Of a stretch of 64,000 nucleotides of DNA, positions 1 through 49,172 are shown piece after piece (position 1 is the first letter of the stretch; each line of letters starts with the position of its first letter). A program made the translations under genes and the position numbers. The stretch is from positions 682,001-746,000 of the forward strand of contig NW_024104509.1 of assembly GCF_003945595.2 (NCBI RefSeq), in the 5' to 3' direction. The stretch comes from Pipra filicauda (taxonomy: Eukaryota; Chordata; Aves; Passeriformes; Pipridae). Below the pieces are notes generated by a model. The model did not search any database and was not told the DNA's origin. It was given only the letters and a program-made list of their open reading frames with translations.

Positions 1-400
1 GGCTATTTTAAATGAGTTCCTGTTGTCCAACTCAGTTCTTTCTGAGGTGTCATGTTGGCACAGGACTTGCTTTTCAAGGCCCAAAGGGGTGTTCCAAGCA
101 GTGGTGTGAGGCACAGGGTATGCCTCCAGTGGATGTTTCCATGTAAGCATGTACCGTTTGCTTGGCGTGTTTGCAGGAGTGTGATGTAATCATATCTGCC
201 AGGTCTCCATATATTTATATTTCAGTCATCATTCACCATACCACAGAGGGTTAGATTGGCCTGCTTGATTGCAGCACGTTTCAGAGTTATGGATAACCTG
301 GGAGTGTGCATGGTTGAGTCCTCCCCTTGATCATGACCCTATCTCTATGTTGCATCTTTTCCCTAATGACCTGAGGCATCACAGGCCCACTGAGCCAGAA
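1..400 (-). pseudogene. Integrase core remnant of the ERV-L-like provirus
   Basis: The minus strand from about base 137 down to base 1 is open. It reads through AYPVPHTTAW, then a stretch ending in ERTELDNRNSFK. The spacing and the Asp-Asn pair match the second catalytic Asp region of retroviral integrases, where Asp-Asn-Gly is usual; here the Gly is Arg. Bases 140-400 are probably more integrase or the RNase H/integrase junction, but I could not follow a clean frame. The window edge truncates it. It is not functional. Confidence 0.55.
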
Positions 401-1409
401 ATAATTCACTCATGTTGTCAGTCCAGATCCCCTGAGATATTTTAATCTTGGCAGCCCGATTCACCTGTCCATTGTTGTGATGTTCTTCAGTAGCCCGACT
501 CTTGGGTACATGTGCATCTACAATAATGTACTTTTACAGCCATCTTCTCTACCCAGACAGTGACGCCTTGCCAGAATTCAGCAGCCCGGGTAAGTTTACC
601 TCTATCCTCCTAATTCATCTTTCTCCATCAGTCTAGTCAACCCCACAGGGCATTTGCTACCATCCACGAGTCAGTGCAAAGGTAGAGCACTGGCCATTTC
701 CCTCATTCAGTGATATCTAAAGTTAGCTGAGTGCCTTTCAGGTCTGCAACCTGACTTGATCCACCTTGTCCCTCAGTAGATTCTGTGACTCATGACATAG
801 GACTCCATACTGTAGCTTTCCATTTTTGATGTATCCCTACAATAGGGCAGGAAATGTCAGTAAAGAGAGCATGTTGCTTTTCATTTTGTGGTAGCTGATT
901 AAACGTGGGGGCCTCCTCAGCATGTGTCACCTCCTTCTCCTCCCCTGACGATGAGAGTTTGAAATTTTCACCTTCAGGCTAGTTCATGATGACTTCCAAG
1001 ATCACTGGTCGAGTAGGGTTTCCTATTCAAGCTTGCTATGTGATCAGCATGATCCACGTAGTATCAGTGGCATGATGTGCGGAAGGGACTTTCCCTTTGA
1101 ACATCCAGCCCAACACTGGCAGTTGGGGTGCCAGGAGGAGCTGTGCTTCTAATCACTTTTAAAGCAGCTCAAATCCCTTCATAAGCTACCAATATGTCTT
1201 TTTTAGTTAGGGTGTAACAGGTCTCAGATCCTTTGTATCTCTGACTCCAGAACACCAGTCAATCCAGCACTCCAGAATCCTTGAGTCTCCACTGGTACTT
1301 TTTGCCAGAGACTCCAGGAAGGAGTTCTGGGAGTTCCAGGAAGGAACCATTCTCCCCAGCTGCAATGTAGAGAACATTTTTCACATCTTGTCCTGTCCTG
1401 ACTGGCCCA

Positions 1410-2140
1410 AGAGCTACTGCATGAACAATCTCCTACTTAATTTGCTCAAAAGCTTGTTGTTTTTCAGGCCCCCACTTAAAATCATTCTTCTTGTGGGTCA
1501 CATGGTAGAGAGGGCTTACAATCTGACTGTAATGTGGAATATACACTCTCCATAAACCCACAGTGCCTAGGAAAGCCTCTGTTTCCTTTTTTGCTGCTTG
1601 CTGGGGAAATAGCTGCTGTTTTGTTGACCATCTGTTGGAATCTGATGACATCCATCTTGCCACTTTACTCCTAAAAACTGAATTTCCTGGGCAGGTCCCT
1701 TGACCTCACTTTGCTTTATGGCAAAACTGGCCTTCAGGAGGATCTGAATTATCTTCTACCCCTTTCTCAAAAATGTCCTCTGCTGTGTTGCCCCACACAA
1801 TGATGTCATCAATGTATTGCAAGTGTTCTGGAGCCTCACCCTTTTCCAGTGCAGTCTGGGTCAGTTCATAACAAATAGTGGGACTGTGTTTCCACCTCTG
1901 GGGCAGTTGTTCCCAAGCGTACTGGACACCACACCAGGTGAAAGCAAAATGGTCTCCATGCCAAAGGAATGGAGAAAAATGCATTAGCAATGTTGATGGT
2001 GGCACCACTTTGCTGCCTTGGACTCCAGTTTGTACTGAAGTTCCAGCACGTCTCACACAGCAGCATTGAGTGGTGGTGTGACTTCTTTCAGGCCGTGATA
2101 GTCTACTGTCAATCTCCACTCTTCACTGGACTGTTAAAGA
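1410..2140 (-). pseudogene. Reverse transcriptase remnant (YIDD) of the ERV-L-like provirus
   Basis: Minus-strand fragments in different frames give consecutive RT blocks. One has IANAFFSIPL (motif A side, 1866-2066), one has EHLQYIDDIIVWGN with the YIDD active-site box encoded at 1805-1816, and one has FLGTVGLWRVYIPHYSQIV followed by FKWGPEKQQAFEQ (1433-1663), the thumb/connection region typical of ERV pol. Frame changes near 1700 and 1870 and the interrupted motif A show that the gene is dead. Motif recognition is strong; the exact ends are approximate. Confidence 0.8.
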
Positions 2141-2149
2141 GTGAGTGAG

Positions 2150-2965
2150 TCTTGCTGACTTCTCCCTGGCTCTCCAGTTCATGAATCATCTCATGGTTGG
2201 GGGTCACAGAGTCCTGGCTGGTGCAGTATTGTCAACAGTGCACTGCTGTGGTAGCGATCGCCACCCGTTGTTCAGTGCCACAGCAGAAGGGTCCTCTGAG
2301 AGACCCAGGAAGGTATTCAGTTGTCTAATTTCCTCTGTCTCCACAGCAGCTATACTAGAAGCAACAATGCCTTTTTGATCCTTGAAATACCCTCTTCTGA
2401 GATAATCTATGCCAAGGCTGCACGGGGCCTCTGGACCAGGCACAGTGGGGTGTTTTTACCATTAATTCCCAGTCAGGCTCACTTCAGCTTCCAGTACAAT
2501 CAGCTGTTGCGATTCCCCTGTCACTCCCAAAATAGAGATGGATTTTGCCCCTACATTTCTTGATGGCATCAGGGTGTGTTGTGCACTGGTGTCAAATAAA
2601 GCCTTACACTTTCATGTAAGATTCAATAACCTGATGTGTCAGGTTATTGAATCTACATAGTCCAAAGATCCAATTGTCCCTTTCCTCTACCTGGCTGAAG
2701 GCAGAGCCCCTCTATTTCTGTTCATAGTACTTGTAGCTCCCTTCTTGCAAATAAGTAATGGAGGTCCCCTCAAGAGAATCAAAGGTAAAATCAGCTCTCC
2801 TATTCTGTGTGAGGACTTGCCCACTGGAAACTGAAGTGATATTTATGCTTGAAGAATTGTGGTTGTCCTTCCTTTCAACTCTTGTGACCATGTTGCCAGG
2901 GCAGAGGTGAATTTTCCATCCCACTTCCTCATACCATCTCCACTGTTGCACAGGAAAAAACGCAC
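2150..2965 (-). pseudogene. gag-pro / pol N-terminal remnant of the provirus
   Basis: Minus-strand pieces at 2204-2443 (with GIDYLRRGYFKDQKG and AAVETEEIRQL) and 2712-2951 (with DSLEGTSITYLQEGSYKYYE) lie directly upstream of the RT block in transcription order. They look like the protease-to-RT linker region of avian ERV-L pol. No intact Asp-Thr-Gly or Asp-Ser-Gly protease box was found, so the protease is either lost or unrecognisable. A striking hairpin (2619-2654) interrupts the region. Confidence 0.5.
2619..2654. repeat. Perfect 16-bp inverted repeat with a 4-base loop
   Basis: The left arm 2619-2634 ends in CCTGA and the right arm 2639-2654 starts with TCAGG. They are exact reverse complements around the loop TGTG. 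With a one-base bulge the pairing continues about five more bases outward (ATGTA against ACAT). It lies inside decayed pol DNA, so it is more likely a local inverted duplication than a terminator or functional retroviral element. Confidence 0.9.
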
Positions 2966-3151
2966 TTTGTGGTGTGTACCCTCTTTCTCACAAAGTGGGG
3001 TGCCTTCTATTAGCAGATGCTCTGGTCTATACCAGTGGGGAATGGAACATTTCCTCTCTAATTTGCTTGAGTCTTTCGAACCTGTCTGCAGTCTTGGAAA
3101 GTCTTTCCATAGCTGAGATGCTGGTCGGTAGGGAGGAAAGGAGACGATCAG

Positions 3152-3572
3152 AGAATCATAGCATCATAGAATCAACCCAGTTGGAAAAGACCTCTGAGAT
3201 CATCAAGTCCAACCCTTGATCCACTACCGCCATGGTTACTAGACCATGACACTAAGTGCCACATCCAGTCTCTTCTTAAAAACCTCCAGGGATGGAGAAT
3301 CCACCACTTCCCTGGGCAGCCCATTCCAATGCTTGATTACCCTTTCTGTAAAGAATTTCTTCCTAATATCTAATCTACACCTCCCCTGGCACAGCTTAAG
3401 ACCATGCCCCCACCTGGCTACAACCTCTTTTCAAGGAGTTGTAGAGAGTGAGGAGGTCTCCCCTGAGCCTCCTCTTCTCCAGGCTGAACAACCCCAGCTC
3501 CCTCAGCCTCTCCTCATAGGACTTGTGCTCTCCCACGTTCTGTACCACTCATGACTAGCTGCCCTCAGGGTC
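3152..3572 (-). mobile_element. CR1 LINE 3' fragment inserted in the provirus
   Basis: The low-coordinate end carries the CR1 tail as repeated CATAGAATC-type units (3152-3174). Above it come the usual 3' UTR and the C-terminal ORF2 sequence in reverse orientation. The copy is 5'-truncated, as most CR1 insertions are. It is very similar over about 200 bases to the CR1 at 39182, so both belong to one subfamily, but it lacks roughly 50 bases after GACCATGCCC that the 39-kb copy retains. Provirus-like sequence resumes on both sides, so the CR1 landed after the retrovirus. Confidence 0.9.
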
Positions 3573-4148
3573 AATCTCTGAATGACCTTCCTTGAACTCT
3601 GTCCTGACTCTAAACTTGGTGTTCACTGTACTGACTCTAAACATGATATAGACCGTACTGAGGAGACATAGGAGACATAGCAACAAGAGCATACTTTCCT
3701 TAACATCCACAGGAAATTCAAAACTCTCAAAAGCTATTGTAACAGTTCTGAAGAAGAAAAAACTGGGGAAAATCACTGACCCCTGTTCTCCCCATCGAGT
3801 ATGATTGTTAATGGCCTCTCAAAGGTAGTGCCCGAGATAAGGGTAGGAGAGCCACACTGAATATACACACTAAATGACCCTCCTTGCCGCTGATGTTATC
3901 ATGTCATAAGTTGATATCACACAGTACAGCAACAAAGTAATCCTGATCCTTCTCTGTCCTCTGAAAAAGAACACTGCTAGGAGCATAAAGTGCGTATATG
4001 GAAATACATATATGATTAGGTACCACAACCATGTGAGCAGACCAAGCAATATTGCGACCAGTGCCTCTGGACCTAATACAAGAAATTCTTAGTTCAAATT
4101 TGTTTCCAGCCTACTCTGGGCAGATTTGTTTCTGTCTCAACCCTTCAT
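3573..4148 (-). pseudogene. Presumed gag/leader remnant of the provirus
   Basis: This stretch lies between the primer-binding-site-like sequence and the CR1 insertion, where gag should begin. A 73-codon minus-strand frame at 3555-3776 is the longest open piece, and no capsid or nucleocapsid motif is recognisable. The call rests on position only. Confidence 0.35.
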
Positions 4149-4166
4149 GTGTCACATTGGGCACCA
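4149..4166 (-). other. Primer-binding-site-like sequence (tRNA-Lys type)
   Basis: On the minus strand, eight bases inside the LTR edge, the sequence is TGGTGCCCAATGTGACAC. Retroviral sites for tRNA-Lys(1,2) begin TGGCGCCCAACGTGG, so the first 14 bases match apart from two C-to-T differences. The position just downstream of the 5' LTR is where a primer site belongs. The eight-base spacer is longer than usual, so the LTR edge may be misplaced by a few bases. Confidence 0.5.
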
Positions 4167-4174
4167 AATAAGGC

Positions 4175-4586
4175 TGTCGTGGTTTAGCAATGGTATTCCC
4201 CAGTTTCATGCTCTCACCAAAACACTCCAAACCATGCGCTGCTTGTACACTCCCCCAACCCCATCCCCTGCAGCCGGCTGGAGAGGAGAATTGGAGGCAC
4301 AAAAGGCAAAGAACATGGATTAAGATAAAAATAATTTAATGGAAACAGCAATGAAATAAGAAAACAAACAGGAACAGCAACAATATTGATAACAAAGGGT
4401 ACAACTGGCAAAAGACTCACATGCGAGTGCTCATCACTATACCATTGTGGAACTCCAAACAACACCTGACTGCGCCATGCTACATGACCCGGAAAGGGAC
4501 TCTTTTCCGCCTGCCCCCAGAACTAATGTGAGGTAGTGTAGAATAACCTCCAGGTCCTTAACTCTGTCCTGTCCAGAATCAGGACA
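4175..4586 (-). repeat. 5' LTR of the ERV-L-like provirus
   Basis: Read on the plus strand it starts TGTCGTGGTTTA and ends near AATCAGGACA. That is the reverse complement of the avian ERV-L LTR pattern TGTCCTGG...TTAAACCACGACA. It shares a purine-rich block (GGAAACAGCAATGA and following) with the solo LTR at 9439, so both are one family. A TTTAAT at 4335-4340 is ATTAAA on the LTR strand, a possible polyadenylation signal. The orientation agrees with the pol remnants. Confidence 0.8.
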
Positions 4587-5753
4587 CATATCTACAAACA
4601 CTTAGGACTTATGCTGCTGAATGTTCTCCTTTCACTGGATGATTAAGTATTTTGTTAAAGAATTCTTTTATGTGAAGACATTTATGGTCCATTTTTCACT
4701 GCTACTTAATGTCTACTGTTTTAATCTGCTTGGCGAAAAATAGAAAAGCATCAGTTCATATTTGAGTATTAAAAGAATATAAAATAAAGTTGGCTCAATT
4801 TTGACAGTGTTTGTGTAATTAAGAAAGTAAGAAAAGAGAGGCTGCAATCCTCCACACTTAACTGCTTGGATCACTTTTGTATCTGAGGACTTGGGACTCA
4901 GTTTCTAGAAAAGCTGAGCACCATTCTGGATGTTAGTACAGGCTTTGAGCTTTTCTGTACACTTGGCAACAGTAGGCTCTCCGTAATATTAAGAAAATGC
5001 ATGCTTTTTTGGAGCCAGACAATGGCATTAAAGAATGTCTGGAATATGCCTTCATAAATTTGAGTTGCTATGATCATTGTTGGATTTATTCTGAAAGGAG
5101 AAAAATATCTGCAGAGTTTAAAACTCAAATGTCTTGAAACCATTTAAATTTTACCATGATTTGAAAAGTCTAGGCTTATGAAGTGTGAAGGTAGAAGAAC
5201 GGGGTGTCATGCCTTCCTGAAGTGCAAGTGGCAAAGCAGACTTAGACATTGAATAGAAATACTTGTGAGGTTGAAGGCAGGCTGCTTGAGGGAATCAGGG
5301 AGACATTTGTATGGGTATATGAAGAATTCAGCAAAGATGTATTTCTGCTCTAGAGTCTGACAGCAAGATGGTCCTATGCAGACTGTAGCTCATATATCTA
5401 TGCCCACATATTTAAGACTATTATTCATTTTTTCATGCAGCCCTTTCTGTTTGGTTTCTTTGCAAATGAAACAATGTGACAGAGGTACTGGAGGTAGCTG
5501 TGCTATGCTTATATGGCATGCACTGAGTTCAACTACATGTACATGGGTACATATGATAGCCATCTTTACAGACAGCTCACACAGTGGTAAAGTAAGTTTT
5601 TCTTGCTTTTTTTTATGTTGCCTCTAATGGGAGACACCCTAATGGTCAGATCTTGCCACTAACCTTTGTAGCTCCAACAATAAACATGGACAAAGAATTT
5701 TGTGAAAATCAATTTGGCTGGAGAAAAAAACACAATTCCATTTTTTTTCTTCT

Positions 5754-5755
<2 letters not shown>
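4587..5755. other. No gene recognised
   Basis: AT-rich sequence without a coherent ORF, recognisable repeat or RNA gene. Short ORFs on both strands look like chance. Confidence 0.6.

Positions 5756-5808
<53 letters not shown>
5756..5808. repeat. Uninterrupted poly(T) tract of 53 bases
   Basis: A pure run of T preceded by a short CTTCTTC-rich stretch. Read on the minus strand it is a poly(A) with an AATAAA about 40-50 bases upstream (plus TTTATT near 5852), which is the layout of a polyadenylated 3' end. It could be a retrocopy tail or simple homopolymer growth. Its length may also be inexact in an assembly. Confidence 0.85.
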
Positions 5809-5813
<5 letters not shown>

Positions 5814-8800
5814 GGTAACAGCAATTTCATTTGTCGAATGATCTGACTGATTTTATTATGAAATAAGATGACATCTATGCTGAATTTTCATATGGAACTC
5901 TTTAGCCTCTGGGCAAGATTTTTCTTTATTATTTTTTTTTTTTACTATAGGCTTTCCCATTTAATATGTTTTTTTCTAACAGCTTTCATAATGTGCAGAA
6001 GGATCACAGAAACTTTTTTGAAACCTTAGATACCAAAATTTAGAATTGTTAGAGAACTTATCACAGGGGCTACAGCAGCACCCTTCCAAGAGATCACAAA
6101 GATGTCATCACTGCAAACACCTGGGTGTTTTAGCACAATGATGTTCAGTTCCTTCTTTGCTTTGCAAATAACTCTATGTAAAGTACACAATATAGGTTGC
6201 AAGGAAGCACAGACAATTTAATTTAAATGCCATTGTGAATGGGAGAAATCCACTCCACCCTCCAAAATTCTGCCTAGATTTTCTCTGCTGTCATTTCTGA
6301 TGTACAATACCTTAATTATTGATTAATTAATGTTTTCTCAATTATGAATTTGTTTGGACTCCATTGATCCTGGTGTGCCTTTCATTAGCATAGTCATATC
6401 ATAGATAATTTCGGGGCAAATTGCAGGATTGCTTGGTCAGGTTTTTTTCTTGCCTTAACAGGATCTGATCCTGATTTCATACCAGCGCAAATATCAACTG
6501 GCTACAATGCAATCCAGTGCAACAGAACCAGTTACTGGTGTGAGACTACAGCTATGAGTAGGACATGAGTTTTAAACCAGTAGCCTCCTGGATTATGTGT
6601 GAGATGACCTAAACACAAACCTCTGATCTGCAGCGTCCTGTGGAGAAGCTTCTTTCTAGTTCTGTTCACTCCCCATGGCAGTTTACAAATATCAGCCTAA
6701 TTCATGCATAACACCTCAGCTAGGGGATGATGTTTAGGTGCTATGAATATCTCCCAAATTAGCCTATTGCTAGCCTCAGCGTCCATATTCATGCCTTGTG
6801 CCAAGCTCCATAGCTGTGCAAATGCCCTAGATTCTTCTTAATTTTTTCATTGCTGTGATTCCAGCAATTACGATTTCAAAAGGATGACAATGAAAGCAAG
6901 GCTATTTTACATATTAAAAGGAATTTTTCTTTATCTGTGGGAATCATGCTGCTAAACATTACCTGCTTGTGTAACCAACTGTCATGTTCCCATAAAAATT
7001 GTTTTCTTACTTCTCCTGGTTTTGTTTGCCCTAGTCATTGCTTGCTTCTTTAGTTGACTCTGTAAGCTAGTGCTAAATACAATACAGCCACTTCTCCAGA
7101 TGATGATGTGAAATCTTTGTACTGCTCTGTGCTAGGAGATAATTACCTTGTAAGTAGGCAGCTGATGCAGTTGTCTGACTCAGGTCCAGTGCACTTCTGA
7201 CAGGATGCTTCACACAACTGACATTCTTGGGAATCATCAAGATATTCCCCTAGTGGAAAAAATTTTGTTTATTTCAGACCAACATCTCATAACTGAAAAA
7301 AAAAAAAAAAGGAAAGAAAAGCACCTAGCCAGGCTGGAAAAAAGGAAAGGAATTAGATCTATTTTGAATTACTGAAATGAGCACATTTCCCTGTGGCATC
7401 AGGAAAACAAGTACTGGCTCCCTTGGGGAACCAGGATACTCAGACTTGGTAGTTTCTAGTGCTTATTAATTTAGCTTTTTATTTATTAGTTTTTTCCCAT
7501 GTGAATTTGACAGAGTGATTCTTGTTGTTCTTGTTAATGTTATTTATTTTGCATCATTTGAACTGGTGAGATTCTTTAAGATTCACTATGGAAAGTTCTA
7601 TCAAAACCAGTGCTACCAAGGAGTATTCATTACATAATGTCTTTAGGTGCAGCTGCAACATGAGCCTGATTGCAAGCTGCAGCATAAAGAGTGTGCTGTC
7701 ATGGGTGGGGGTATGTTACATGAGGAGATGGACTTGAGCAACCTTCTGTTAGTCAGAGACATGTTGGTGCTTCCTAAAACTCTAGCTACGGCGTATTTTG
7801 CCCCATCCCAAGCTGCTGATGGAAGATTCCATATGAAATGGACGTAGGCTCTCATTTAGGCTGAATCGAAACTTAGTGCCAAAGTGCACATTTGGACTTG
7901 AAAAAAAATTTGTATCATATGGACTGTTACCTTAAAACTGAGATAAAGATATAAACATTTCTAGATCATGAATACACTAGTTCTACTATAGTGCTGAAGT
8001 GTAAAGTTTGCCTCTTTATTTACTGAATATTAAGTAAAACACTGGTACAAATGGTAAGCTGCTTTATGTTCTTAGAGCAGAGATATTAATTTGGTAAGTA
8101 TGATTATATACTGTATCTGTATGCACCATCATGTGAGAACAGTAAATCAATATATCACAGTTTTATAAAGCTCAAGATTAGTCTTTTATGTCAGTTTGTT
8201 CTGGGAAAATTTATTGTAACTGAGTCTATATATTTAGAGAATTGGCTGTTCCTTCATTTTTGAGTAATGGAAGAGGCTGGGCAAAATGTCCTATATAATA
8301 CATAAACCCTGCAGTTTCTATGGATACTTCAATATGGAGAAACTCTTTCCATTTGCATTGCTGCTGGAAAACCCAGATTTGGCAAATACAGTGAACTTCA
8401 GGACTAAAAATACAAGTGTGGAATGACTTGGTTTTGGCTCTCAGTTTCAATGAGCTCCCTTTATTTGAAGAGCAAAGGCACTGTACAAGCAGCTACTGGT
8501 ATCAATTTAAAACAATTTCTGGAAGAAAAAGTTTCTAAAATACCACAAATTGTGTTCTCTGTTCATTGTGTTTTCTACTACATATTAAACTGTATTAACA
8601 AATTTTTTAATGGTTGAAACCACAGGTGTGAGATATGAGCTAGGATAGTACTTCCATGCTTAAGGGAATGGGAATAGTATAGTTATAAAAGCATACCAAC
8701 TGGAATATCAAGCCAACTGTGGGTGAAACCTAAGGTATCCAAAATGTAGGCAAAGATATAATTTTCATTTTGTAAAGGTTTGTGTGGCTCCTGAAGAAAG

Positions 8801-9897: not shown

Positions 9898-9918
9898 TCT
9901 ATCTATCTATCTATCTAC

Positions 9919-9993
<75 letters not shown>

Positions 9994-9994
9994 C

Positions 9995-10053
<59 letters not shown>

Positions 10054-10054
10054 C

Positions 10055-10113
<59 letters not shown>

Positions 10114-10140
10114 ATCTGTCTATCTGTCTATCTATATCTA
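9898..10140. repeat. ATCT tetranucleotide microsatellite
   Basis: About 54 near-perfect ATCT units from 9898 to about 10113, interrupted by ACCT variants at 9917, 9993 and 10053, then degenerate ATCT/GTCT units to 10140. It starts three bases after the target-site duplication of the solo LTR. Length is likely polymorphic. Confidence 0.95.
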
Positions 10141-38053: not shown

Positions 38054-38190
38054 CTGGAGTCTTGAAATTTCTCAGCTGAGACGGAGTGTCACAGATTTCC
38101 AAGATCCAGTCACCTGCTGCTTTTTCACTCCAGCAGTGAGTAGTCATAAACTCCCAGTTTTTGAATCCTTCCATGGAATGATCAAATAGC
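38054..38190 (-). CDS. PCSK5: PCSK5 exon c: central P domain
   Basis: 137 bases, acceptor TTGTAG, donor GTATGA, phase 2 in and phase 1 out. It encodes LFDHSMEGFKNWEFMTTHCW, then SEKAAGDWILEICDTPSQ and LRNFKTP. The NWEFMT...HCW...GDW core is diagnostic of the convertase P domain, which stabilises the catalytic domain and sets its calcium and pH needs. Two residues look odd against the mammalian protein as I remember it: Ser after CW where Gly is usual, and Cys in LEIC where Tyr is usual. Both are single-base changes. Confidence 0.93.
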
Positions 38191-39264: not shown

Positions 39265-39573
39265 CTAGACCATGGCACTAAGTGCCACATCCAGTCTCTT
39301 CTTAAAAACCTCCAGGGATGGAGAATCCACCACTTCCCTGGGCAGCCCATTCCAATGCTTGATTACCCTTTCTGTAAAGAATTTCTTCCTAATATCTAAT
39401 CTACACCTCCCCTGGCACAACTTGAGACCATGCCCTCTTGTCTTGCTGATAGTTGCCTCGGAAAAGAAAACAACCCCCACCTGGCTACAGTCTCCTTTAA
39501 GGGAGTTGTAGAGAATGATGAGGTCTCCCCTGAGCCTCCTCTTCTCCAGGCTGAACAGTCCCAGCTCCCTCAC
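39265..39573 (-). pseudogene. CR1 ORF2 C-terminus in the shifted frame
   Basis: A 102-codon frame containing [16 protein letters not shown], then [18 protein letters not shown] and [19 protein letters not shown], the conserved C-terminus of CR1 ORF2. It overlaps the tail of the 470-codon frame and would be continuous with it if the small deletion were absent. Confidence 0.88.
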
Positions 39574-40909
39574 AGGACTTGTGCTTGAGTCCCTTCACCA
39601 GCCTAGTTGCCCTCCTCTGGACCTGCTCCAGCACCTCAATATCCTTCCTGAACTGAGGGGCCCAGAACTGGACACAGTACTCCAGGTGTGGCCTCACCAG
39701 CGCTGAGTACAGGGGCAGAATCCTTGGACCTGCTGGCCACACTGTTCCTGATCCAGGCCAGGATGCCCTTGGCCTTCTTCGCCACCTGGGCAAACTCTGG
39801 CTCATGTTCAACTTCTTGTCAATCCAAACTCCCAGGTCCCTCTCTGTCTGGCTGCTCTCCAGCCACTCTGTCCCCAGCCTGTAGCACTGCAGGGGGTTGT
39901 TGTGGCCAAAGTGCAGGATCCGGCACTTGGCCTTGTTGAGCCTCATCCCGTTGGAATCAGCCCAACTCTCCAACCTATCCAGGTCCCTCTGCAGAGCCCT
40001 CCTGCCTTCCAGCTGATCGACACTCCCCCCCAACTTAGGGTCATCTGCAAATTTGCTGATGATGGATTCAATCCCCTCACCTAAATCATCAGTAAAGATA
40101 TTAAACAGAACTGGGCCCAACGCTGATCCCTGGGTGACACCACCAGTGACCGGCCGCCAACTGGATGCAGCCCCGTTCACCACCACTCTCTGGGCCCGGC
40201 CCTCCAGCCAGTTCCTAACCCAGCACAAAGTGCCCCTGTCCAAGCTGTGGGCTGCCAGCTTTTCCAGGAGTATGCTGTGGGTGACAGTGTCAAAGGCTTT
40301 GCTGAAGTCCAGACAGACTACATCCACAGCCTTCCCCTCATCCACCAGGCAGGTCACCTGATCATAAAAGGAGATCAGGTTGGTCAGAGAGGACCTGTCC
40401 CTCCTAAACCCATGCTGGCTGGGTCTGATCCCTTGTCCATCCCGTAGGTGCTGTGTGATTACACTGAGGATGATCTGCTCCATAACCTCGCCAGGCACTG
40501 AGGTCAGGCTGATGGGCCTGTAGTTTCCCAGGTCCTCCTTCCGACCCTTTTTGTGGATTGGTGTGACATTTGCCAACTTCCAATCATGTGGGACCTCCCC
40601 AGTGAACCAGGACTGTTGGTAGATGATGGAGAGAGGCTTGGCGAGCTCTTCTGCTAGCTCCCTCATCACCCTTGGGTGGATCCCATCTGGTCCCATAGAC
40701 TTGTGGGGATCCAAGCAGCTCAGTAGGTCACTAATTGTTTCCTTTTGGATTACAGGGGGGCTGTTCAGATTCTTATCTCTTTCTACAAGCTCCAGTAGCC
40801 AGTTGTCTTCAGAAGAACAAGTCTTACTGTTGAAAACTGAGACAAAGAAGGTGTTAAATACCTCAGCCTTTTCCTCATCTTTGATAACTATATTCCCGCC
40901 CATGCCCAA
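39497..40909 (-). pseudogene. CR1 ORF2 reverse transcriptase, 470-codon open frame, truncated
   Basis: An open frame with the RT palm: NYRPISL (residues 129-135), [10 protein letters not shown] (198-207, motif A), SQHGFRR (164-170), a [12 protein letters not shown] block (261-272) and FADD (287-290, motif C). The Pro usual in VPQGS is Thr and PKLGG replaces TKLGG, changes expected from drift. The N-terminal endonuclease is absent, and the last about 20 residues are out of frame because of an 11-base deletion. The start Met is arbitrary. It cannot retrotranspose by itself. Confidence 0.9.
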
Positions 40910-40943
40910 TAAAGAATGGAGGTTTTCCTTGCCTCTCCTTTTG

Positions 40944-41458
40944 CTATATGTATGTATATCTTTTATACATGCATATATACGTATGTATTATATTTATCAC
41001 TATTTTAATTTGGTCTTTATGTGTGAAAATTCTACTGGTAATAGCCATGTTTAAATATTTTTTAATTAAACAAGATGTCTACAGCAGAAAATCCAATTGA
41101 TTTAAAATGCTTTCCCGTAAAACAGAGAAAAATCCAGCATTGGACTAGATTAACATTTATGACATTTCCACTTGTGACTTTTTACTGTTATTTTCTAAGC
41201 TAATTTCAAGCTTTATTCTCAAAAGGTAGTGAAGTTCAGCAAGCATTGGGAAAACGGGATACTTTTGTAAGAATGCTTCTGGTGAAAACCGCCACACAGA
41301 ATATGAATAAAACACCATAGTTCTTGCTGGGAGCTTAGGTCAGTCAGCGGCATGGGGTCAGGTACAGTATATCCACACTTACTGTCATAGAAACTGTATG
41401 GACCATGCACTTTATAGGGCTCAGCCAAAAGCTGATTTTCATGCTCTCATTTCAAACA
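40944..41458. other. Intronic spacer between two CR1 copies
   Basis: TATGTA-rich start, then unremarkable AT-rich sequence; the 69-codon minus ORF at 41219-41428 has no recognisable domain. Confidence 0.65.
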
Positions 41459-42086
41459 CAGAAACATAGCATCATAGAGTTGGAAGGGAACTACAAGGAT
41501 CATCAAAGTTCACCTCCTGGCCCTACACAAGACAGTCCCCATAATCACACCATGTGCCTGAGAGCATTGTCCAAAAATTCTTGAACTCTGGCAGGCTTAG
41601 TGTCATGACCACTTCCCTGGGGAGCCTGTTCCAGTGCCCCTGGATGAAGAACCTTTTCCTAATATGCAACCTAACTCCCCAGACACAGCTTCATGCTATT
41701 CCCTTGGGTCCTGTCACTGGTCACCAGAGAGGAGATCGATGCCTGCCTCTCTGCTTCTCCTTGTAAGGAAGACGTAGGCTGCTATAGGTCTCCCCTCATT
41801 CTCTTCTCCAGACTGAACAAACCAAGTGATCTCAGCTGCTCTTCATATGGCTTTCCCTCTAGACTCTTCACCATTTTTGTAGCTCTCCTTTGGACACTCT
41901 CCTATAGCTTTGCATCTTTCTTATATTGTGGTGCCCAAACCTGCACACAGTACTCGAGGTGGGAATACAACAGTACAGTGTCGAGTGGGGCAATCACCTC
42001 CCTCGACTGACCCGATGGCCCCCAGGACATGGTTGGCCCTCCTGGCTGCCAGGGCACACTGGTGACTCATATTCAACTTGCCATTT
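41459..42086 (-). mobile_element. CR1 LINE 3' fragment (second subfamily)
   Basis: It starts with CATAGCATCATAGAGTTGGA at the tail and runs through 3' UTR and C-terminal ORF2 sequence to about GACTCATATTCAACTTGCC. The tail block (reverse complement of CCATGTGCCTGAGAGCATTG) matches the plus-strand CR1 ending at 43982, so the two are one subfamily in opposite orientation. Confidence 0.88.
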
Positions 42087-42102: not shown

Positions 42103-42601
42103 AAAGGAATGCCTATAATAGTATTTATTGAGGCCATGTTACTGAGAACACAGCTGCATTGGGCAGGGCACATCTCCAGGATGAAGGACCACCGCCTCCC
42201 TAAGATCTTGCTTTATGGTGAACTTGCCACTGGCTGCTGCAAGAGAGGAGCCCCAAAGAGGAGATACAAGGACTCCCTGAAACAACATCTCAGCCTTGGC
42301 CATATTGATCATCATAACTGGTCTACTCTGGCCTCCAATTGGGAGGTCTGGAGACACACCATCTTATAACGCTGCTGCTTCTTTTGAGAAAGCACGCAGG
42401 ATCACCCTTGAGGAGAAAAGACAACGCAGAAAGAATCGTGCCTTGTAGAATATACCACCTAAGGAGTCTTTCTGCTGTGCCTTTTGCAACCGGACATGCC
42501 TATCTCGTATTGGCCTTTTTAGCCACCAACGCGCTTGTAACAAACGTGGGTAGAGCCCTTCCCAAATCTTCGTTCACAAAGTCTAGCCATGATGATGATA
42601 G
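42103..42601 (+). mobile_element. Non-CR1 LINE fragment: C-terminus and 3' tail of an RTE-like element
   Basis: The translated plus strand gives LLRTQLHWAGHISRMKDHRL, then PKILLYGELATGCCKRGAPK, RYKDSLKQHLSLGHIDHHNW and, after a small frame change near 42366, FEKARRITLEEKRQRRKNRA. This WAGH-RM-D-RxPK-GEL-G...RYKD pattern is the C-terminus found in RTE-type retroelements, not CR1. After an in-frame TAG come CAFC and a GLFSHQRAC zinc-finger-like end, then a stop, a short 3' UTR and an ATGATGAT tail. 5'-truncated. It may be the avian RTE family AviRTE; that name is inference. Confidence 0.7.
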
Positions 42602-43109
42602 TATTCTAATCTATTAGAACTCATAAAATTAAATTAAAATATATATTTAGAATTATCTTAATTTTCACTGATAATTGTGTGAGAATTTCTTCTGATGCAG
42701 TTCTGTGCCTCTGTATGTGCACCTACGTGTGTATATGTAAATATATTCTGGCAGCAGAATGGGCCTGTTTCATGTCACTGTTAAATCAGTTCTCTGAATA
42801 CAGCAAAATCTCACAAACACGTGGCACTTATTGTTTACTGAAAAGGTAGAAATTATTACACAGTTATTACCCAGAATTTGCATGTGAGTATGTTCATTTT
42901 ACGTCATTATAGAGATTATTTCCAACTGTTAGTCAAATTGTCATACTGTTGTCATATTGTTGTTGTCTGATAACTAATGTATTACTTTCTAAACATCCTG
43001 TCAGTGCAACAAGGCAGCAATATTTCTCTTTGCCATCGAGGTAACTAGATTACCCAATTCACTATTCCCCTATGCTCACAGGTCGAGCACAGAGGGTAAC
43101 AGTAAACAG

Positions 43110-43982
43110 GGTAACATCAGACCAGTGACCGGTCACTAGTGGGCTCCATCTTAGACCCTGTGCTCTTCAACATCTTCATAAATGACTTGGATGCAGGACT
43201 GGAAGGGATGCTAAGTAAGTCTGCAGATGATACAAAACTTGGAGGAGTTGTTGACTCCCTCTAAGGCAGGGAGGCCCTGCAGAGAGATCTCAACAAATTA
43301 GAGGATTGGGCAATCACCAACCATGTGAAGTTCAACAAGGGGAAGTGCCAGATTCTGCACCTGGGATGGGACAACCCTAGATGTACATACAGATTGCAGA
43401 ATGAGATCACCAGCCGGTCAAGGGAGGTGATTGTCCTGCTCTGTTTCTGCACTGGTGAGGCCTCACCTTGAATATTGTGGCAGTTTTGGGCACCACAATA
43501 TAAGAAATACATTAAGCTATTAGAGAGTGTCTAAAGGAGGACAACAAAGATGGTGAAGGGCCTTGAGAAGAAGCCATCTGAGGGGCGGCTGAGGTCACTT
43601 GGTGTGTTTGGCCAGGAGAAGAGGAGACTAAGGGGAGACTTCATTGCAGTCTCCTCATGAGGGGAAGAGGAGGGGCAGGCACTGATCTCTTCTCTGTGGT
43701 GACCAGTGACAGGACCGAAGGGAATGGCCTGAATCGAGTCAGGGAAGATTTAGACTGGATATTAGAAAAAGGTTCTTCATCTAGAGGGTGGCTGGGCACT
43801 GAACAGGCTCCCCAGGGCAGTGGTCACAGCACCAAGCCTGACAGAGTTCAAGAAGCATTGGACAACACTCTCAGGCACATGGTGTGAATCTTGGGGATGG
43901 TCCTGTGCAGGGCTAAGGGTTGGACTCGATAATCCATATGGGTCCCTTCCAACTCAGCATATTCTGTGATTCTGTGGTTCTG
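43110..43982 (+). mobile_element. CR1 LINE 3' fragment, plus strand
   Basis: ORF2 remnants (a CTCTTCAACATCTTCATAAA block, TCTGCAGATGATACAAAACT for the degraded active-site region) lead through the C-terminus to a tail of ATTCTGTGATTCTGTGG. An internal deletion is likely around 43400-43435, where the sequence jumps ahead. Same subfamily as 41459-42086 but inverted. Its open frame at 43657-43887 is a C-terminal ORF2 remnant. Confidence 0.9.
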
Positions 43983-48983: not shown

Positions 48984-49172
48984 CTGTTGGCCAAGAGCTG
49001 TGACCTAGTTCCAGATGGAGAGGTTAGGTAAATTGCCAAGTCTCCACGCCGAGGGTGAGTAATAGTGATGCGCACAACCACATGCTCCAAGTAGATCACA
49101 TGGTGGTTAGGATTATCTGAACAGCCAGTGGCTTTGTAAATTGAACGGACAACGCTGTCAGGTCGTATTGTT
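48984..49172 (-). CDS. PCSK5: PCSK5 exon b: first part of the P domain
   Basis: 189 bases, acceptor ATTATAG, donor GTATAG, phase 2 in and out. It encodes TIRPDSVVRSIYKATGCSDN, then YLEHVVVRITITHPRRGDLA and IYLTSPSGTRSQLLAN. HPRRGDL is the conserved P-domain loop of furin-family convertases, and the combination with YKATGCSDNPN identifies PCSK5 rather than PCSK6. Sequence identity to the mammalian exon appears very high. Confidence 0.96.

Follow-up and report, generated by a model that had tools for sequence, protein, structure and literature searches.

A non-LTR retrotransposon is represented by its 3′ end at bases 42126-42597 on the plus strand of the window (the whole stretch of 64,000 nucleotides analysed here). 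We assign this element, with a probability of roughly 0.92, to a 5′-truncated and inactive copy of AviRTE that lies antisense in an intron of PCSK5, in a host that most likely belongs to the suboscine passerines and stands close to Pitangus and Manacus. The assignment to AviRTE is supported by a 3′ primer site, a 3′-UTR of about 40 nucleotides, relatives whose named bird sources all belong to AviRTE host lineages, and a clade supported at 100/99.

According to its original description (Suh et al. 2016, PMC4844689), AviRTE is a horizontally transferred LINE of tropical birds and filarial worms, with a 5′-UTR of ~800 bp, an ORF of ~3.2 kb and a 3′-UTR of ~40 bp. Its hosts are seven bird lineages, suboscine passerines and psittacid parrots among them. 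The authors find it nested among RTEs from animals of aquatic or semi-aquatic habit, and give a nucleotide identity of 83-99% between subfamilies and a copy number of 141 to 8,306 per bird genome surveyed (PMC4844689). One intronic copy, in the ornithine decarboxylase gene, is described there for some suboscines, with a target duplication of 13 bp (PMC4844689).

Structure of the element

The features of the element and the two neighbouring exons are compiled in Table 1. Of the RTE-type ORF the last ~142 codons are retained, including one frameshift and one premature TAG. The single frame change falls at ~42360-42365, and the frame-1 translation of the upstream part reads IEAMLLRTQLHWAGHISRMKDHRLPKILLYGELATGCCKRGAPKRRYKDSLKQHLSLGHIDHHNWSTLASNWEVWRHT. 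The plus strand encodes the WAGH..RM..HRLPK..LLYGEL block, the K/R-rich stretch EEKRQRRKNR and the C2H2-like C-terminal end CAFCNRTCLSRIGLFSHQRACNKRG. Thus, the WAGH block, the K/R-rich stretch, the zinc-finger-like end and the ATGATGAT tail named in the original prediction were all found on the strand to which it had assigned them; its start at 42103 lies ~15-23 nucleotides too early, as homology begins at 42118-42127 and the preceding bases are flank.

Table 1. Coordinates of the element, its flanking repeat and the adjacent PCSK5 exons in the window
Feature	Position	Strand	Basis
5′-truncated copy (ORF C-terminal end, 3′-UTR, tail), very probably AviRTE	42126..42597	+	protein relatives, AviRTE 3′ primer site, tree
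ORF part 1 (IEAMLLRTQLHWAGHISRMKDHRLPK...WRHT), frame 1	42127..42363	+	tblastn: matches of many relatives in frame 1 stop at 42363
ORF part 2, past the frameshift (YNAAASFEKARRITLEEKRQRRKNRAL and NIPPKESFCCAFCNRTCLSRIGLFSHQRACNKRG on either side of the stop), frame 2, C2H2-like end	42365..42550	+	translation and tblastn
Premature TAG within ORF part 2	42446..42448	+	reading of the sequence
TAG following ...ACNKRG, where the ORF of the family normally ends	42551..42553	+	several relatives end there too (...CSKRG, ...CNKCG)
3′-UTR, 44 nt from stop to tail end, closing in (ATG)3	42554..42597	+	sequence reading
(ATG)3 tail	42589-42597	+	sequence reading; terminal letters of the UTR, ATGATGATG
Site of primer AviRTEfull-4R	42578-42596	-	16/19 identical (3 mismatches)
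5′ copy of direct repeat ATAGTATT, candidate target-site duplication	42118..42125	.	exact 8-nt match to 42598-42605
3′ copy of direct repeat ATAGTATT	42598..42605	.	exact 8-nt match to 42118-42125
PCSK5 exon upstream of the insertion (direction of transcription)	48984..49172	-	tblastn 49174-48983, 90.6% to human PCSK5; edges by eye from AG/GT
PCSK5 exon downstream of the insertion (direction of transcription)	38054..38190	-	tblastn 38204-38052; edges by eye from AG/GT

A Pfam search with the three frame pieces of the element at E values up to 10 returned no family. The reverse transcriptase and endonuclease domains are missing from the fragment, which counts against the assignment to AviRTE. 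The 5′-UTR and most of the ORF of the published full-length AviRTE are missing, and only the last ~470 nucleotides are present. Judged from its sequence, the element is an inactive 3′ stub.

With its short 3′-UTR (44 nucleotides, compared with ~40 bp in the published description) and the AviRTE 3′ primer site at its very end, the element resembles AviRTE in these two features. The only site for primer AviRTEfull-4R with at most three mismatches in the window is the 3′ end of the element, where 0.04 sites were expected and four of 100 shuffled sequences contained one; part of this match, however, falls in the tail, a feature possibly common to other RTEs as well (compare P0057, below). The best sites for the remaining nine AviRTE primers in the window show five to seven mismatches, as is expected of a 3′ stub. 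Moreover, a motif search revealed that the out-of-frame reading of the UTR recurs in 11 of the 91 protein relatives described below (ten from Willisornis and one from Amazona), five of which run into at least six D residues, corresponding to a (GAT)n tail. This likeness is not exclusive to birds: tblastn also matched the UTR stretch of P0055 (48% over 25 residues) and the ATG-repeat tail of P0057, both unnamed environmental rows and both weaker. The sequence AGCCATGATGAT, with which further AviRTE pieces or co-mobilised SINE tails were sought in the window, has eight matches at up to two mismatches compared with 7.7 expected, and thus indicates nothing beyond the element's own end. Rfam and tRNA scans found nothing.

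Flanking repeat and 5′ junction

A candidate target-site duplication and a short tandem 3′ tail, the two features of a LINE insertion, are both present, as ATAGTATT occurs on either side of the element and the 3′ end closes in (ATG)3. An exact match of equal length was found in 47 of 12,604 pairs of 20-nt stretches spaced 488 nucleotides apart with a G+C content of up to 0.40, and in 54 of 5,825 pairs with the same spacing and a G+C content of 0.15-0.30, which is nearer to the actual value of 0.225. The intronic position and the short putative target duplication are shared with the published ornithine decarboxylase example, whereas the repeat comprises 8 bp here and 13 bp there. The sequence found at the 5′ junction is AGTATTTATTGAG, and the relatives carry there the residues TSIEAM, which would be encoded by AGTATTGAG or a similar sequence. 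Comparison of AGTATTGAG with AGTATTTATTGAG suggests that the 5′ junction may include microhomology. In particular, the AGTATT of the 5′ copy of ATAGTATT may at the same time represent microhomology with the element.

The host gene and the likely host

Using human PCSK5 as tblastn query, eleven exons were located in order on the minus strand at 50.2, 49.1, 38.1, 30.7, 28.5, 27.9, 26.5, 24.3, 23.7, 22.5 and 7.2 kb. The joined exon peptides had their top three matches in Pitangus, Willisornis and Nipponia (among the best 120 of 185 matches; 1824 candidates), and the Nipponia protein is annotated as PCSK5. The position in a PCSK5 intron, which had been proposed from the sequence, is thereby borne out. 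Since candidates in this search were bounded to 0.55-1.75 times the query length, full-length PCSK5 proteins were left out and few bird PCSK5 proteins are comparable. The 49.1-kb and 38.1-kb exons are the ones on either side of the element; as the gene lies on the minus strand and the element on the plus strand, it is antisense. In addition, a microsatellite, (TCTA)59 with 94% matches, was observed between PCSK5 exons at 9898-10135.

The exon at 49.1 kb is identical at 62 of 63 positions to both the Pitangus and the Willisornis protein, and the exon at 38.1 kb at 46 of 46 positions to Pitangus. Over ten exons each, although not quite identical sets, the window PCSK5 matches Pitangus at 429/431, Willisornis at 425/436 and Nipponia at 413/436 residues; the corresponding values are 308/312 for Meleagris (seven exons), 278/288 for Hirundo (seven), 227/240 for Cyanistes (five) and 152/155 for Calidris (four), several of these seven bird proteins being partial or poorly predicted. 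When the comparison is confined to the five exons common to four birds, Pitangus (252/254), Willisornis (251/254) and Meleagris (250/254) are barely separated, followed by Nipponia (245/254). The weight is carried by two exons, at 24.3 kb and 22.5 kb, with three sites at which the window and Pitangus share R, R and A while Willisornis and Nipponia have H, H and V. One site speaks against a suboscine host: at residue 7 of the 49.1-kb exon the window carries V, like Nipponia, Meleagris and Calidris, whereas each of the four passerines in the comparison has I.

The suboscines include Tyrannidae, Pipridae and Thamnophilidae. Because the PCSK5 exons are nearest to Pitangus among the few comparable birds, the host is probably a suboscine with Pitangus and Manacus (flycatchers and manakins) as near kin and hence would belong to a published AviRTE host lineage. 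Alternatively, the element could be a genuine AviRTE whose host does not belong to any of the seven lineages known to carry it, in which case it would record a further horizontal transfer. The V at residue 7, which sets the window apart from the four passerines, and the small number of bird PCSK5 proteins in the comparison speak for this possibility. However, the three residues shared with Pitangus and the overall proximity of the host gene to this bird argue against it, as does the element itself, the nearest copies of which are those of Manacus and Pitangus. We therefore grant a further transfer a small chance only. The expectation that the copy would narrow down the host lineage is thus partly borne out, since the host gene and the element agree in indicating a suboscine passerine.

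Protein relatives and phylogenetic placement

When the read-through peptide of the element was used as query, 91 of 97 candidate proteins matched at E ≤ 1e-3, the best at 1.5e-71, which lies far beyond chance; the original prediction of an RTE-like LINE fragment is supported. Candidates were limited to 0.55-1.75 times the query length, which explains why full-length elements are not seen among the relatives. Their sources are Willisornis vidua (43), Pitangus sulphuratus (3), Amazona aestiva (3), Manacus candei (1), Penaeus (1), Solea (1), Branchiostoma (1) and unnamed organisms (38). Hence, 50 of the 91 come from named birds (manakin, flycatcher, antbird and Amazona), all in published AviRTE host lineages. 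Several relatives are named 'C2H2-type domain-containing protein' in their source records. A Pfam analysis of eight relatives yielded a weak Exo_endo_phos match in P0076 (E 4.7e-5, 23.7 bits compared with a cut-off of 24.5) and a weak C2H2 match below the cut-off in P0003 (E 0.0068). Among 53 pattern matches in genome_contigs and 79 in viral_contigs, no DNA relative of the element was present.

The closest relative is a protein of Manacus candei (P0001), 84% identical over the full read-through query. Considering rows with at least 95 aligned columns, the identity of the window copy is 0.85 to Manacus, 0.78-0.80 to Pitangus, 0.44-0.74 to Willisornis, 0.65-0.71 to Amazona and 0.37-0.66 to unnamed rows, so that the weaker bird rows overlap with the unnamed ones. 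A shorter, partial match to an unnamed row is higher (P0073, 72% over 50% of the query).

A tree was calculated from 78 rows and 140 columns, 14 of 92 rows having been dropped for fewer than 95 filled columns; its bootstrap had not settled. The bird copies together with the window copy form a clade with support of 100/99. Within this tree, window, Manacus and Pitangus group at 85/92, and window and Manacus at 82/74. None of the starred sets comprising at most half of the tree's rows includes the window copy. In AU tests on these few (140) columns neither a placement of the window copy outside the bird clade (p 0.322) nor its grouping with Willisornis and Amazona (p 0.24) was rejected. At the 12 columns that split Manacus and Pitangus from Willisornis, the window agrees with the former at eight, with the latter at two and with neither at two. 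The 17 columns that split the birds from the unnamed majority show the bird residue in the window at 13, the unnamed one at two and neither at two. Taken together, the primer site at the expected end, the 50 relatives from named birds in AviRTE lineages and the bird clade support the reading as AviRTE that had been put forward, with the AU result for a position outside this clade on the other side of the balance.

This AU result also leaves room for an older RTE of crocodilian or turtle type that was inherited by all birds and is merely related to AviRTE. In addition, the WAGH...C2H2 end spans a wider group of RTEs, as 38 unnamed rows and one each from Penaeus, Solea and Branchiostoma are among the 91 relatives. 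However, the window copy reaches 85% identity to bird rows and at most 66% to unnamed ones (at least 95 aligned columns), and it carries the bird residue at most of the columns that separate the two. Moreover, Mycteria, Grus and Hirundo, whose unmasked gene sets fill the CR1 matches listed (best 120 of 7724), provide no relative of the element, although decayed copies would escape; this is in line with a patchily distributed element rather than one common to all birds. Finally, in a copy of ~100 Myr, 142 codons should have accumulated many more lesions than a single frameshift and a single stop. An inherited RTE is thus improbable, and AviRTE remains the preferred identity.

In the tree, nine RTE C-termini (P0011, P0018, P0019, P0021, P0023, P0025, P0052, P0059 and P0064) form a set (100/97) that adjoins the bird AviRTE clade (89/75). 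Unnamed environmental RTEs, among them four of these (P0018, P0019, P0021 and P0023), share the WAGH block and the C2H2-like end with the element; the four are 61-63% identical to it and lie outside the bird clade. The organisms behind the set of nine could bear on the origin of AviRTE.

To our knowledge, the C-terminus of BovB lacks a C2H2-like end of the kind seen in the element. BovB likewise belongs to the RTE superfamily and has likewise spread horizontally, but according to the AviRTE description it is only distant kin of AviRTE (PMC4844689).

CR1 copies in the vicinity

Two CR1-like copies in opposite orientation flank the element, at about 41460-42066 (minus strand) and 43115-43975 (plus strand), as delimited by eye. 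An uninterrupted CR1-type ORF of 496 codons, containing an RVT_1 domain (E 1.6e-33), is located in the same intron at 39497-40987 on the minus strand; being free of stops, this copy is perhaps fairly young. The best 120 of its 7724 relatives are mostly from Mycteria americana, but also from Grus, Hirundo and others, and are uninformative on the host. One reverse transcriptase labelled Klebsiella pneumoniae (P0191) is 67% identical to this ORF over 93%, and is probably vertebrate DNA in a bacterial record.

Like the element, the CR1 copies are truncated non-LTR LINEs in the same PCSK5 intron, but they show no detectable similarity to its C-terminal end. Searched against the rest of the window by tblastn, the element peptide has its next best match at E 2.7 and none to the CR1 copies; a second copy of the element DNA is likewise absent from the window (next best E 0.31). 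A CR1 origin is thereby ruled out, and the CR1 match that would have contradicted the proposed RTE origin was looked for in vain. That a CR1 or L2 fragment has been mistaken for an RTE, as the CR1-like copies on both sides and the prevalence of CR1 among avian LINEs might suggest, has next to no chance in view of these E values, obtained in a direct comparison that covered CR1, and of the fact that none of the best 120 of 7724 relatives of the CR1 ORF shares an identifier with the relatives of the element.

Discussion

Target-primed reverse transcription is the standard mechanism for LINEs, and the structure of the AviRTE copy would be explained by it as follows. A full-length AviRTE elsewhere in the genome would have supplied the RNA together with the endonuclease and reverse transcriptase. 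The short 3′-UTR of that RNA, with its (ATG/GAT)n tail, would have been copied at the nicked target, and copying would have halted ~470 nucleotides in, possibly aided by the AGTATT microhomology. Upon insertion, the ATAGTATT target would have been duplicated. The resulting copy would have been dead on arrival, and it carries the frameshift and the nonsense change.

The element is a clear but ordinary copy of the published AviRTE family, to which it adds one copy. Few cases of LINE transfer between vertebrates and their parasites are well argued, and AviRTE is among them. Moreover, the presence or absence of an intronic copy with a clear flanking repeat can serve as a marker in suboscine phylogeny and help to set a minimum age for the activity of AviRTE.
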